Shown here: one piece after another, positions 54,985 to 63,254 of the stretch | Layout: each line of letters begins with the position of its first letter | How positions within the stretch are numbered: the first letter of the stretch is position 1 | From: Turicibacter sanguinis | GTDB taxonomy: Bacteria > Bacillota_I > Bacilli_A > MOL361 > Turicibacteraceae | Length of the DNA stretch: 64,000 bases | Direction of reading: 5' to 3' | Assembly: GCF_013046825.1 (NCBI RefSeq) | Contig: NZ_CP053187.1 | Coordinates: forward strand, 981,501 to 1,045,500 | Program-made: the position numbers and the translations under genes | The notes under the pieces: model-generated | Seen by the model: only the letters and a program-made list of their open reading frames with translations | The model's database searches: none | Told to the model about the DNA's origin: nothing

Positions 54985-55160
54985 CTTTTAATTTATCCAC
55001 ATTATCCACAGGCAAAATAGTATCTTTTTTTCGACTATATTTAATATTTTCTTCTAATTTTGTGATAATACCAATGTAAAATCATACTTTTTTCTATCTA
55101 AAAAAATCGGAAAATATCGTTTTCAAATCTGTGAACAACTCTAAAAGTTATCCACAACTT
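54985..55160. promoter_or_regulatory. DnaA-box cluster downstream of dnaN
   Basis: Perfect DnaA boxes lie at 54993-55001, 55002-55010 (tandem, no gap) and 55148-55156, with a TTGTGGACAA inverted partner directly after the last one. This lies between the ABC exporter and dnaN and probably belongs to the origin. Confidence 0.7.
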
Positions 55161-55170
55161 GTGGACAAAC

Positions 55171-55206
55171 AAAAAAAGATTAGTGACAAAATGTCACTAA
55201 TCTTTT
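55171..55206 (-). terminator. Terminator after dnaN
   Basis: AAAAGATTAGTGACA pairs with TGTCACTAATCTTTT around a short loop. Confidence 0.88.
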
Positions 55207-56359: not shown

Positions 56360-56511
56360 CTATATAATTATATATTATATCTTTTTATAACCATTTTAGT
56401 AATAATGTTTGTGAATATAGGGGATAATGTCTAAAAACATCCTCCTGTAGGTGTTTTTAGTTGTGGATAACTTGTGGACAGTTCATACTTTAATGTCGAA
56501 TCTTATCCATA
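56360..56511. promoter_or_regulatory. Origin unwinding module between dnaA and dnaN
   Basis: On the minus strand, going away from dnaA, the spacer has a near-consensus box at 56503-56511 and a perfect DnaA box at 56462-56470. A hairpin (56431-56460) and two weaker boxes (near 56418-56430 and 56410-56418) follow. Next comes a DnaA-trio-like run ATTATTACTA (about 56397-56406), then an AT-rich stretch (56360-56390). This is the Bacillus order of boxes, trios and unwinding element. Confidence 0.7.
56431..56460 (-). terminator. Hairpin between dnaA and dnaN
   Basis: CTAAAAACA pairs with TGTTTTTAG, extended by CCT/AGG with a one-base mismatch, around 5 nt. No further T run follows, so it may be an attenuating terminator or part of the origin structure. 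Confidence 0.5.
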
Positions 56512-57872: not shown

Positions 57873-58290
57873 CACATACACCTCATCCGAAAGTCTCTTC
57901 TATCAACATTATAGCATAACCAAAACTTAAAAAAGTCCACAATGTGTAAAAAATCAACAAAAAGTTATAAACAACCTTGTGGATATGTGCTTTTCTTCAA
58001 CAATCTGCAACACTTTTCGACAATGTGCAGTGGATAACCACAAGCTAAAAAGCCTGTAACACCAATGTTTTCGTCATTTATCCCCAATATCCACAGAGTA
58101 AGGTATAAACAACGTGTCGAATTGTGAATAATATTGTGGAATACTTTTTAATTCTATCGTCTAAGTAAAATCTATTCACATGTCCACAGTAGACGACACG
58201 ATATCCAAAAAGTAATCATTGACTTTACAGTTTAGATTGACTATAATATTGAATTATGCTATGGTATAAAACTCTTAGGAGGTGTTATAG
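57873..58290. promoter_or_regulatory. oriC DnaA-box cluster upstream of dnaA (dnaA-rpmH)
   Basis: The 418-bp divergent spacer holds at least six one-mismatch DnaA boxes, including TGTGGATAT near 57979, CAGTGGATAA near 58028, TTATCCCCA at 58078-58086, ATATCCACA at 58087-58095 and TGTGAATAA near 58122. I see no long AT-rich unwinding element or trio run here. It resembles the upstream half of a bipartite Bacillus oriC and also contains dnaA and rpmH promoters. Confidence 0.75.
58219..58247 (+). promoter_or_regulatory. rpmH promoter
   Basis: TTGACT and TATAAT are separated by exactly 17 bp, about 44 bp before the rpmH start. Confidence 0.88.
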
Positions 58291-59671: not shown

Positions 59672-61030
59672 ATGCTACAAGATACAATCGCTGGAATCTC
59701 TACTGCTATGGGCGAAGGAGCCATCTCAATCATTCGTTTAAGTGGAGATGAAGCCTTAGATATTGCAAATAAAATTTTTCGTGGAAAAGATTTAAAAAGT
59801 GTTGCTAGCCATACCATTAACTACGGTTTTATATATGATCCTGAAACTGACCGAAAAGTCGATGAAGTTTTAGTTTCAGTCATGCGAGCACCAAAAACAT
59901 TTACGGCTGAAGATATCGTGGAAATTAACTGCCACGGGGGAATTTTAGTCACTAATAAAATACTAGAACTTGTTTTATTAGCTGGTGCACGACTTGCTGA
60001 ACCTGGGGAATTCACAAAACGCGCCTTCTTAAATGGCCGTATCGATTTAGCACAAGCCGAATCAATTATGGATATCATTCATGCTAAAAGCGAACAATCT
60101 TTATCACTAGCTTTAAACGGTTTAGATGGGCGTGTTTCTCGTTTAATTAAAGAAATGCGTGAAGAAATTTTAAATATTTTAGCTAATATCGAAGTTAATA
60201 TCGATTATCCTGAATATGATGATGTTGAAGAAATGACAAACGACATCTTACTTCCTCGTTCAATCGATATTCATGAAAAAATGTTAAAACTATTAGATAC
60301 AGCTAAAACAGGAAAAATTCTTCGAGATGGAATTAAAACTGTCATTATCGGGCGTCCTAACGTTGGAAAATCAAGTTTACTGAATCAATTAATGCGTGAA
60401 GAAAAAGCCATCGTAACAAATATTGCAGGAACAACACGTGATACAGTTGAAGGGTATATTAATATCGGTGGATTAACATTAAATTTAATCGATACGGCTG
60501 GAATTCGTGATACAGAGGACATTGTTGAAGCTATTGGTGTTGAAAAATCAAAAAAACTAATTAACGAAGCCGAACTTGTTTTATTAGTTTTAAATAATAA
60601 TGAAAAATTAACAGCCGATGATCGTGAACTATTATCATTAACAAATGATAAAAACCGTATTATCATCTTAAATAAAACAGATTTAGAGACTCAAATTGAA
60701 CGAGACGAACTTCCAAACTATATTGAAACCTCTATGGTTTTAGAAAAAGGAATTGAAGTTCTAGAAAATCAAATTAAAAAAATGTTTGAAATTGGGGATA
60801 TCGGAGCTAAAGATATGACTTATTTATCAAATGCCCGTCATATTGCTAAACTAAAACAAGCCATTAATTCAATTAACGATGCCATTTCAGCTATGCAGTT
60901 AGGAATGCTTGTGGATATGGTTGAAATTGATATTAAAAATGCATGGTATTCACTTGGTGAAATTATCGGAGAAGATATGGGAGATTCATTACTCGATGAA
61001 CTCTTCAGTAAATTCTGCTTAGGAAAATAA
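59672..61030 (+). CDS. mnmE: tRNA uridine-5-carboxymethylaminomethyl GTPase MnmE
   Basis: MnmE is the GTPase partner of MnmG for tRNA wobble U34 modification. The 452-residue protein has the N-terminal THF-binding domain, the G domain with GRPNVGKSSLLN, GTTRDT and DTAGIRDT (about 225-275), and ends in FCLGK, with the catalytic cysteine. The ATG follows GGAGG. MnmG is on the other side of dnaA, about 7 kb away, which is unusual. Confidence 0.97.
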   Translation: MLQDTIAGISTAMGEGAISIIRLSGDEALDIANKIFRGKDLKSVASHTINYGFIYDPETDRKVDEVLVSVMRAPKTFTAEDIVEINCHGGILVTNKILELVLLAGARLAEPGEFTKRAFLNGRIDLAQAESIMDIIHAKSEQSLSLALNGLDGRVSRLIKEMREEILNILANIEVNIDYPEYDDVEEMTNDILLPRSIDIHEKMLKLLDTAKTGKILRDGIKTVIIGRPNVGKSSLLNQLMREEKAIVTNIAGTTRDTVEGYINIGGLTLNLIDTAGIRDTEDIVEAIGVEKSKKLINEAELVLLVLNNNEKLTADDRELLSLTNDKNRIIILNKTDLETQIERDELPNYIETSMVLEKGIEVLENQIKKMFEIGDIGAKDMTYLSNARHIAKLKQAINSINDAISAMQLGMLVDMVEIDIKNAWYSLGEIIGEDMGDSLLDELFSKFCLGK

Positions 61031-61069: not shown

Positions 61070-61155
61070 ATTTTATAACCTTCATAGATTATAAAAAATC
61101 TAAACTAGCTATATCTTTATGTCATATTATGTCTGTTTTTCTCACTTTGATTGCC

Positions 61156-61345
61156 GACAATAAAATGCATTTATCTACAACTAATTCACATCTATGTGGA
61201 CAAAAAACGACACTTGTCTATAATTTATTCACAAGATATCAACAAGCAAAAATCTCATAAAATCGACATTTTCAGACAGTTATCCCCACTACCCACAGAA
61301 CTTATTATTATTGTTATTATTATAAAAAATAAATATATAAATACA
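61156..61345 (+). repeat. Origin-like direct repeat, copy A
   Basis: The copy has one-mismatch DnaA boxes at 61171-61179 (TTATCTACA), 61195-61203 (TGTGGACAA), 61225-61233 (TTATTCACA) and 61280-61288 (TTATCCCCA), and a two-mismatch box at 61289-61297 directly abutting it. After GAAC come seven trinucleotides (TTA TTA TTA TTG TTA TTA TTA, 61302-61322), whose complement fits DnaA trios, and then an A/T-only run. The first 165 bp align without gaps to copy B. Confidence 0.8.
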
Positions 61346-61669
61346 ATAGGAAGTTTTGTCGAAAAAAAGTTTTTTACTTTCCTAAAAATAAAATAATTCT
61401 TTATCACCTATCATTTAAAATTAATGCTGTATTTCTAACTTAAGTATTTAAATTCAAAAAAAATTAATAAATTTTCATATTCACTTAATAAGCTGAGTAC
61501 CAGACTTTCCACAATACAAATACCATTTCATTCTAACTATTAATAAATAAAAATCCTATATATAATAAAAATTTTTTAAATCTAATATTAGAACCCTTTT
61601 TCTAGCTTAAATAATATCAAAAATCATTTCTCCATAAAAAATTAAAACTCTCTTTTTGATTTCTCACCT

Positions 61670-61680
61670 CCCCTAAGGGG
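61670..61680. repeat. GC-rich mini palindrome
   Basis: CCCCTAAGGGG is a small inverted repeat of four C and four G within a sequence otherwise nearly free of G and C. No gene adjoins it. Confidence 0.4.
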
Positions 61681-61745
61681 GGACAATTAAATAATAAAAA
61701 AGTATTTTTCTAACTAAAATTCAACTTTTTTAAACCACTATTTTC

Positions 61746-61935
61746 GACAATAACAAACAGTTATCTACAAACAATTCACAACCATGTGGACAAAAAACGA
61801 CACTTATCTACAGTTTATTCACAAGATATCAACAAGCAAAAACTTCGTTAAATCGACACTTTCAGACACTTATCCTCAATATCCACAAAGCTTATTATTA
61901 TTGTTATTATAAAAAAAATATAATATATAATAATA
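61746..61935 (+). repeat. Origin-like direct repeat, copy B
   Basis: Copy B has six one-mismatch DnaA boxes at 61761-61769, 61785-61793 (minus orientation), 61804-61812, 61815-61823, 61870-61878 and 61879-61887. The last two abut. AAGC and then six trinucleotides follow (TTA TTA TTA TTG TTA TTA, 61892-61909), then an AT-only run with TATAATATATAATAATAA. Spacing of the final boxes, spacer and trios is identical to copy A. Confidence 0.8.
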
Positions 61936-61995
61936 ACAAAAAAAGACGTGAATCGACAAACTCACATCTCTATTTAAAACTGTGTATAAAGACTA

Positions 61996-62562
61996 TTAAA
62001 TTAAATTTAAATGAGTTAACGTTCTCTTTAATTGAGCAATGGGTAATCCCATGACACTATAATAATCTCCAGAAATAGATTTTACTAATTCAAACCCTTT
62101 TCCTTGAATTCCATAAGATCCTGCCTTATCCATTGGTTCTCCACTTTTAATATAATTTAAAATCCATTCATCTGTAACATAATAAAATTCAACATCCGTA
62201 ATATTAACGAAACTTGTTAATAACTCTTTTTCTTTATTAATAATACTTACACCTGTCATAACCTGATGTTTACGTCCTGATAAATTTTTTAACGTATTAA
62301 ATGCATCTTCTTCATTTTTTGGTTTACCTAAAATTTTTCCATCACAGACAACAATCGTATCCGCACCAATAACAGTTTCACTTTCAAAAAGATCAGCAAC
62401 TGCACAAGCCTTTTGAATTGCTAAATCTTGAACTTGATCTGCTACATCTAAATCAGCATCCATTACCTCATCTACAGCACTAACAACCACTCTATGTTCA
62501 ATTCCAGCTAACTCTAATAATTCTTTTCGTCTTGGAGACTGTGACGCTAAAATAATTCCCAT
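61996..62562 (-). CDS. maf: Maf-family nucleotide pyrophosphatase
   Basis: Maf hydrolyses non-canonical or selected nucleoside triphosphates (dTTP, UTP and modified forms). The 188-residue protein starts MGIILASQSPRRKELLEL and has VIGADTIVVCDGKILGKP and GSYGIQGKGFELVKSISGDYYSVMG, split across motif regions. The ATG at 62562 is 8 nt from AAGGAG; the earlier TTG has no ribosome binding site. It is the only minus-strand gene right of dnaA in the window. Confidence 0.96.
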   Translation of the reverse strand: MGIILASQSPRRKELLELAGIEHRVVVSAVDEVMDADLDVADQVQDLAIQKACAVADLFESETVIGADTIVVCDGKILGKPKNEEDAFNTLKNLSGRKHQVMTGVSIINKEKELLTSFVNITDVEFYYVTDEWILNYIKSGEPMDKAGSYGIQGKGFELVKSISGDYYSVMGLPIAQLKRTLTHLNLI

Positions 62563-62665
62563 AATCAACACTCCTTCTTATTTATCCACATTTCAATGTC
62601 GAATTCTGATAACAGATTCGACATCTAATATAATTAAAAATTATAACATATACAGGAGATTCTAT

Positions 62666-63005: not shown

Positions 63006-63254
63006 AAGTCAATATCTACGTTGAAAAGGAGAGTACCTTTTAATTAAGTCAAAGCGAGTCAGGGACGGTGGGAGCCTGATATGGCGTTAAAAGCGAAGAA
63101 CACCTTGGAGTTACTTATCGAAAGCAATTATTTGTAAGTAGGCTAAGTCGTACACCTGCGTTAAAGGGAAAGGGTAAGAATATTCTATTCTTAAACTAGG
63201 GTGGTACCGCGGATCAACAGTCATTCGTCCCTTTTGGGCGAAGACTGTTTTTTT
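63006..63254 (+). ncRNA. Asparagine T-box leader of asnA
   Basis: The leader has a stem I region and the T-box core AGGGTGGTACCGCGG (63198-63212), followed by an intrinsic terminator (ACAGTC and a GC-rich stem ending in eight or more T near 63247-63255). The triplet AAC at 63099-63101 in a bulge-like setting is a plausible Asn specifier. Binding of uncharged tRNA-Asn would switch on asnA. Confidence 0.92.

Follow-up and report, generated by a model that had tools for sequence, protein, structure and literature searches.

The gap between the converging genes mnmE and maf of Turicibacter sanguinis contains two copies of a DnaA-box module with a complete unwinding motif, and the chromosome has a third copy further to the right. 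It is almost certain that this element is an origin-type unwinding module under selection. Together with the third module, the mnmE-maf gap is also the probable main working origin of the Turicibacter chromosome and of the family, its use as a start site being inferred.

The window, the whole stretch of DNA that was analysed (64,000 nucleotides, G000:C1:981501-1045500), belongs to a closed genome of 2,999,687 bp. Its gene order from left to right is dnaN(-), dnaA(-), rpmH, rnpA, jag, mnmE(+), the gap, maf(-), a T-box and asnA(+), where the names rpmH, rnpA, jag and asnA were assigned by eye. The T-box leader (RF00230, 134.8 bits) occupies window positions 63012-63235, upstream of the asnA-like gene. 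The gap separating mnmE from maf is 965 bp long and contains both direct repeats, which are 191 nt in length (61150-61340 and 61740-61930), 85% identical and spaced by exactly 590. A sequence-only reading had described two repeats with this offset, each with five to six near-consensus DnaA boxes and each ending in abutting boxes, a 4-nt spacer, six or seven TTA/TTG trinucleotides and an A/T run. Sequence comparison bears out the repeats and their boxes as well as this order of elements, with seven trinucleotides in copy 1 and six in copy 2; the observation is real, and was understated.

Four boxes of module 1, starting at 61171, 61195(-), 61225 and 61280, have one mismatch each to TTATCCACA, and the last one, CTACCCACA at 61289, has two. 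All six boxes of module 2 (61761, 61785(-), 61804, 61815, 61870 and 61879) have a single mismatch. The trios of both modules are TTA or TTG with a middle T, so that the complement, which is the bound strand, has A as the middle base. A/T-only DNA follows the trios in both window copies. The features are collected in Table 1.

Table 1. Features of the dnaA-mnmE-maf region, in window coordinates
Feature	Position	Strand	Remark
Canonical dnaA-dnaN unwinding module, TTATCCCCT-ATATTCACA-AACA-TTATTACTA	56398..56427	-	faces left, away from the mnmE-side modules
rpmH-dnaA spacer DnaA-box cluster	57978..58131	no strand	abutting pair TTATCCCCA-ATATCCACA without trios
mnmE	59672..61030	+	conserved left neighbour of the gap
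Module 1, DnaA-box cluster and complete BUS	61150..61343	+	mnmE/maf convergent gap
Module 1, upstream DnaA boxes	61171..61233		61171 TTATCTACA +; 61195 TGTGGACAA (-); 61225 TTATTCACA +
TCGACA-4 nt-CAGACA, two Spo0A-box-like motifs 10 bp apart	61263..61278	+	module 1, beside the BUS
Module 1, abutting DnaA-box pair TTATCCCCA-CTACCCACA	61280..61297	+	
Module 1, seven DnaA-trios TTATTATTATTGTTATTATTA	61302..61322	+	after the 4-nt spacer GAAC
Further TCGACA/TGTCGA	61357, 61744, 61853, 61953		
Module 2, second DnaA-box cluster and BUS copy	61740..61936	+	
Module 2, abutting DnaA-box pair TTATCCTCA-ATATCCACA	61870..61887	+	
Module 2, six DnaA-trios TTATTATTATTGTTATTA	61892..61909	+	after the 4-nt spacer AAGC, then an A/T-only run
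maf	61996..62571	-	convergent right neighbour of the gap

A whole-genome search with copy 1 finds the third module at G000:C1:1049255-1049451, with 82% identity to copy 1 and 88% to copy 2. It is located 6.0-6.6 kb to the right of modules 1 and 2, about 3.8 kb past the right end of the window, and is also placed in a convergent gap, flanked by one gene that has no Pfam match and by a radical SAM gene of the ygiQ type. All three modules face right and the canonical dnaA-dnaN element faces left. The pattern box-box-4nt-TTATTATT occurs at only four sites in the 3.0-Mb genome when up to three mismatches are allowed: modules 2 and 3 match it perfectly, module 1 has one mismatch and the dnaA-dnaN spacer has three, while a reversed control pattern has no site in the whole genome. 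Random sequences (five order-2 sequences, 560 kb) contain 0-1 BUS-like sites, and no cluster of at least three boxes was found in ten 180-kb first-order random sequences.

The published rules for a BUS (PMC8287927) call for one or two DnaA boxes, with at most two and at most four mismatches, beside the trios, for up to 16 bp from the first located box to the trios, and for a minimum of three NAN trios in a row on the bound strand. The abutting pairs of the modules have 1 and 1-2 mismatches, the trios start 4 nt from the second box and 13 from the first in every copy, and the three modules have seven, six and seven trios. The A/T-rich criterion is met by the A/T-only run adjoining the trios in both window copies. 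Judged by their sequences, all three modules qualify as BUS under these rules, strand separation by ATP-DnaA being an inference. The dnaA-dnaN module, with three trios (TTA TTA CTA), has the minimum the rules allow; it is a weaker match than the mnmE-side modules, yet is kept in Turicibacter.

Each of the three further closed genomes from the genus (G001, G002 and G004) carries two modules. All of them follow mnmE on its downstream side and precede maf, or asnS in cases where no maf was found at this place. The geometry of the box pair and the 4-nt spacer is identical in every copy, while the DNA between the copies is unrelated among the genomes, and in blastn comparisons of the mnmE-side gaps essentially the modules alone align. 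In G002, the two copies are separated by an apparent transposase (IS-like) insertion, judged by eye from the sequence. A draft genome (G003) has a match downstream of mnmE, at a contig end, and a member of a different genus of the family (G005) has one complete module downstream of mnmE. A lack of conserved boxes and trios in this intergenic region of close relatives had been named beforehand as a finding that would refute the reading; both are conserved, and the refutation failed. The box half of a module is closer to the other copies within the same genome, and in G001 and G004 the trio half of copy 2 is closer to its ortholog. Because the two halves show different resemblances, an old duplication with some gene conversion is suggested. 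The canonical dnaA-dnaN core is almost invariant within the genus; such a highly conserved module therefore probably still matters, which counts against the mnmE side as the main working origin.

When a sequence profile is made from nothing but the nine modules, it matches the dnaA-dnaN spacer in all four closed genomes, with E values from 6e-7 to 4e-11. In a sample of 198 Bacilli genomes, 16 matching loci from outside the family were fetched, of which 11 contain dnaA and dnaN, 3 contain rnpA and dnaA and 2 are unrelated places. Since a profile made of modules alone finds the dnaA-dnaN spacers across Bacilli, homology identifies the modules as paralogs of the canonical unwinding element (BUS) of that spacer. 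Among 80 Bacilli mnmE loci, strong matches just downstream of mnmE are present only in two Turicibacter records, and nearly all other matches agree in distance and orientation with the dnaA-dnaN spacer. The position downstream of mnmE is thus, within this sample, special to the family of Turicibacter. Many Bacillaceae have instead 3-5 boxes just upstream of mnmE, a cluster known from B. subtilis (PMC4447404).

Other DnaA-box clusters were also noticed. Where dnaN converges with an ABC-type permease gene (window 54990-55190), the gap contains perfect abutting boxes at 54993 and 55002 and a third one at 55148, with no trios; G001 and G004 have a three-box cluster at the matching place, and the cluster is possibly a DnaA sink. 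The parA/noc gap of the same two relatives (G001:C1:1882420-1882850 and G004:C1:2105682-2105851) contains a cluster in which several boxes are perfect, and which is largely missing from this gap in G000. At G000:C1:1020450-1020937, 17-18 kb to the left of dnaA, there are two parS-like sites separated by about 0.5 kb, one reading TGTTCCACGTGGAACA and the other differing from it by one mismatch.

The mnmE-maf gap is also rich in motifs resembling Spo0A boxes. TCGACA/TGTCGA occurs five times within these 965 bp, whereas 540 kb of the genome average 0.27 per kb; the counts are similar in the relatives and the positions of the motifs are fixed within the modules. Many copies read TGTCGAT, one mismatch from the 0A box TGTCGAA, and in B. 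subtilis oriC the Spo0A boxes (TGTCGAA) overlap DnaA boxes (PMC5295017). Spo0A control is a reasonable inference because the motif is enriched, Spo0A (Spo0A_C) is present in the genome and B. subtilis provides a precedent. By this analogy the modules are probably read by Spo0A, binding and control being inferences and not results.

The position at which the strand asymmetry switches was assessed preferentially at fourfold-degenerate sites, where the choice of amino acid has no effect. Across the four closed genomes, the plus-strand fourfold skew of rnpA+jag+mnmE takes the values -0.32, -0.29, -0.16 and -0.21, with intervals extending about 0.2-0.25 to either side; that of dnaA is negative as well, which is left-arm-like, and argS has a positive or a zero skew. 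Switch positions were compared in a change-point model whose reference values were specific to arm and orientation and which was scaled for overdispersion. It places a switch at dnaN|dnaA below the best one by 18.7 (G000), 10.8 (G001), 6.9 (G004) and 11.2 (G002) log units, and rejects dnaA|rnpA less strongly, by 13.8, 7.7, 5.2 and 3.1 log units. The best switch is mnmE|asnS in G002 and maf|asnS in G004, where mnmE|maf is 0.3 below. In G001, it is on the asnS|DUF-argS side, with maf|asnS 1.4 below and the module locus within 2.2 log units, and in G000 it is the gap holding module 3, once a presumed acquired minus-strand block is left out. This block, to the right of module 3 or asnS, was omitted in G000 and G001 because ygiQ is absent from G002 and G004 and the composition may be imported; when it is included, the G000 switch moves to 1058.5 kb, likewise a long way from dnaA. 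By this fourfold measure, the skew changes sign at or to the right of the module locus, and not at dnaA-dnaN, in all four closed genomes. The evidence is good but not conclusive, because the orthologs are not independent and each gene offers few sites.

The four minus-strand genes to the right of module 3 (G000:C1:1049601-1058452) have a strong left-arm skew and encode ygiQ, clostripain-like, pullulanase-like and EAL-type products, the last three named by eye. This block displaces the raw skew minimum by about 9 kb. Raw cumulative GC skew is ambiguous and counts against the main reading, its minimum lying elsewhere, at about 1058 kb in G000 and near dnaA/rnpA in two relatives. An origin at 1058 kb, some 20 kb from dnaA, was rejected, since the 200-bp gap there has no DnaA boxes and the preceding minus-strand block, which starts with ygiQ, absent from two relatives, was treated as acquired. 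Skew at third positions without the fourfold restriction moves the G002 switch to dnaA|rnpA, also a point against; this measure depends on amino-acid make-up and was set aside after disagreeing with the fourfold sites in that genome. In control Bacillus genomes, the fourfold skew is too weak for a sharp test of the change-point method. On its own strand, mnmE has a fourfold skew of -0.31 in G000, a left-arm value, and of -0.41 in G005; the mean over 63 Bacilli with mnmE near dnaA is +0.15, with 87% of the values positive.

The sister genus (g3, represented by G006 and G007) has almost no space between dnaA and dnaN, and neither boxes nor trios separate the two genes in either genome. In G006, dnaA-dnaN is located away from the rpmH-rnpA-mnmE cluster, and a single BUS-like site lies directly downstream of mnmE, now adjoining noc-parA-parB. 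The fourfold counts of this genome, pooled by hand, differ across the mnmE-side gap (G117/C125 on the left, G313/C200 on the right). In G007, the sign of the skew is the same to the left and to the right of dnaA-dnaN, and mnmE was not found in this incomplete genome. Such a pattern is expected if the mnmE-side module took over, and is to be taken with caution as G006 is a draft genome and its profile match is weak (E = 0.0012).

The anatomy, uniqueness and conservation of the modules, their BUS homology and the position of the fourfold skew switch are shown by computation, the raw cumulative skew disagreeing on the last. DnaA binding, melting, start-site use and Spo0A control are all inferred, and a shift of the origin to the mnmE side is not proven, in the absence of marker-frequency, footprint or biochemical data. 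In the proposed mechanism, DnaA would bind the upstream boxes and then pass to the abutting pair, ATP-DnaA would polymerise along the six to seven trios on the complementary strand, and the A/T run on the right-hand side would melt and allow loading of the helicase. The two or three modules would act as redundant start points within 0.6-6.6 kb, and the B. subtilis precedent makes it probable that Spo0A can block them via the interleaved TCGACA boxes during sporulation. The dnaA-dnaN module would have been retained in Turicibacter and lost in the sister genus. It is tentatively proposed, at somewhat short of an even chance, that the origin of Turicibacteraceae was re-founded beside mnmE as two to three independently usable unwinding modules giving alternative starts within a few kb, which freed dnaA-dnaN to lose its BUS and to leave in the sister genus.

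The modules might instead be accessory parts of one extended origin, with the main unwinding and helicase loading at dnaA-dnaN and the mnmE-side copies helping by looping, as an opposite-facing second helicase-loading site or as a backup. The near invariance of the dnaA-dnaN core within the genus, its recognition by the module profile and the opposite facing of the two loci are in line with this, as is the bipartite, looping oriC of B. subtilis (PMC5295017). However, dnaA and rnpA+jag+mnmE have a left-arm-like fourfold skew in all four closed genomes, and the dnaA-dnaN spacer of the sister genus lacks boxes and trios; both speak against it, and a bipartite oriC with unwinding only at dnaA-dnaN is at odds with complete motifs at three mnmE-side sites. 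An accessory role is possible but unlikely; together with titration it is the main rival of an origin on the mnmE side.

The sequence-only reading had also offered the alternative of a decoy or activating locus that titrates or reloads DnaA. As a DnaA sink, the modules would be a datA-like box cluster lowering free DnaA near the origin after each start. Clusters of 5-6 boxes in convergent gaps resemble the gcp/ydiF cluster of B. subtilis (PMC4447404), deletion of six such clusters leads to early initiation in that organism (PMC5295017), and the definition of a titration locus, a DnaA-box cluster outside oriC, is met provided that oriC is equated with dnaA-dnaN. For a sink, boxes alone would suffice, whereas every copy has conserved the 4-nt spacer, the trios and the A/T run along with the box pair, the modules match true unwinding regions and the skew also points to the locus. 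Titration is thus the less likely of the two earlier proposals, an improbable one that is not excluded. The other, duplicated replication-start modules outside dnaA-dnaN, gains support from conservation, profile homology and the fourfold skew, initiation and melting being unmeasured.

A DnaA-controlled transcription site or a 3' regulatory element for mnmE/maf is very improbable: DnaA of B. subtilis binds upstream of trmE (mnmE), which it appears to repress (PMC4447404), and other Bacilli have their 3-5 boxes upstream of mnmE, but in Turicibacter modules 1 and 2 sit on the downstream side of mnmE, in a gap where two genes converge, and module 3 sits in the gap of a different convergent gene pair, so that a promoter or regulatory site was rejected for both loci. 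The modules contain no Rfam element and only the asn T-box was found nearby, and an RNA element was likewise rejected. A recent repeat expansion or a functionless mobile element, to which the direct repeats and the box halves partly more alike within one genome than between orthologs (as gene conversion would give) could point, is hardly tenable and is refuted in the main by conservation, as site and geometry are kept in several species and a second genus while the surroundings diverged, and the module has no gene of its own to move it.

The common picture of a bacterial origin is that of a single unwinding site, usually located next to dnaA. If the re-founding of the origin beside mnmE is true, the old site, the two to three new sites and a sister genus with the new site only would represent an origin moving by duplication without loss of function, and origin predictions that assume adjacency to dnaA would misplace the Turicibacter origin. 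The modules allow asking whether two of them fire independently and how once-per-cycle control copes. They also provide natural variants, with trio arrays of 3, 6 and 7 and with box and trio halves of different histories, for testing the determinants of DnaA-trio strength.

No paper on the Turicibacter origin or on a BUS beside mnmE was found. The closest known system is the incC BUS in the dnaA-dnaN spacer of B. subtilis (PMC6669920, PMC8287927), which shares the upstream boxes, the tandem pair, the short spacer, the middle-A trios and the A/T-rich run, but the Turicibacter modules are located beyond mnmE, 5-11 kb from dnaA-dnaN, in two to three copies and facing away from dnaA. The bipartite oriC of B. 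subtilis and Helicobacter pylori (PMC5295017, PMC4403523) similarly spreads origin information over several intergenic regions near dnaA; there one subregion unwinds, whereas Turicibacter has three or four intergenic sites with complete unwinding motifs. The non-oriC clusters of B. subtilis, including jag-trmE and gcp-ydiF (PMC4447404, PMC5295017), also place boxes near mnmE/trmE or in a convergent gap, while those of Turicibacter are downstream of mnmE and not upstream, and have complete trios and an A/T run. The origin of E. coli is likewise separated from dnaA (PMC6669920, PMC8287927), but its BUS score is weak, while Turicibacter has an intact BUS in several copies, one of them still at dnaA-dnaN. 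More than one oriC-like region per chromosome has been proposed in the putative double origins of some bacteria (PMC4403523), which were predicted from DnaA boxes and skew, while the Turicibacter sites are conserved in the family and contain complete unwinding motifs.
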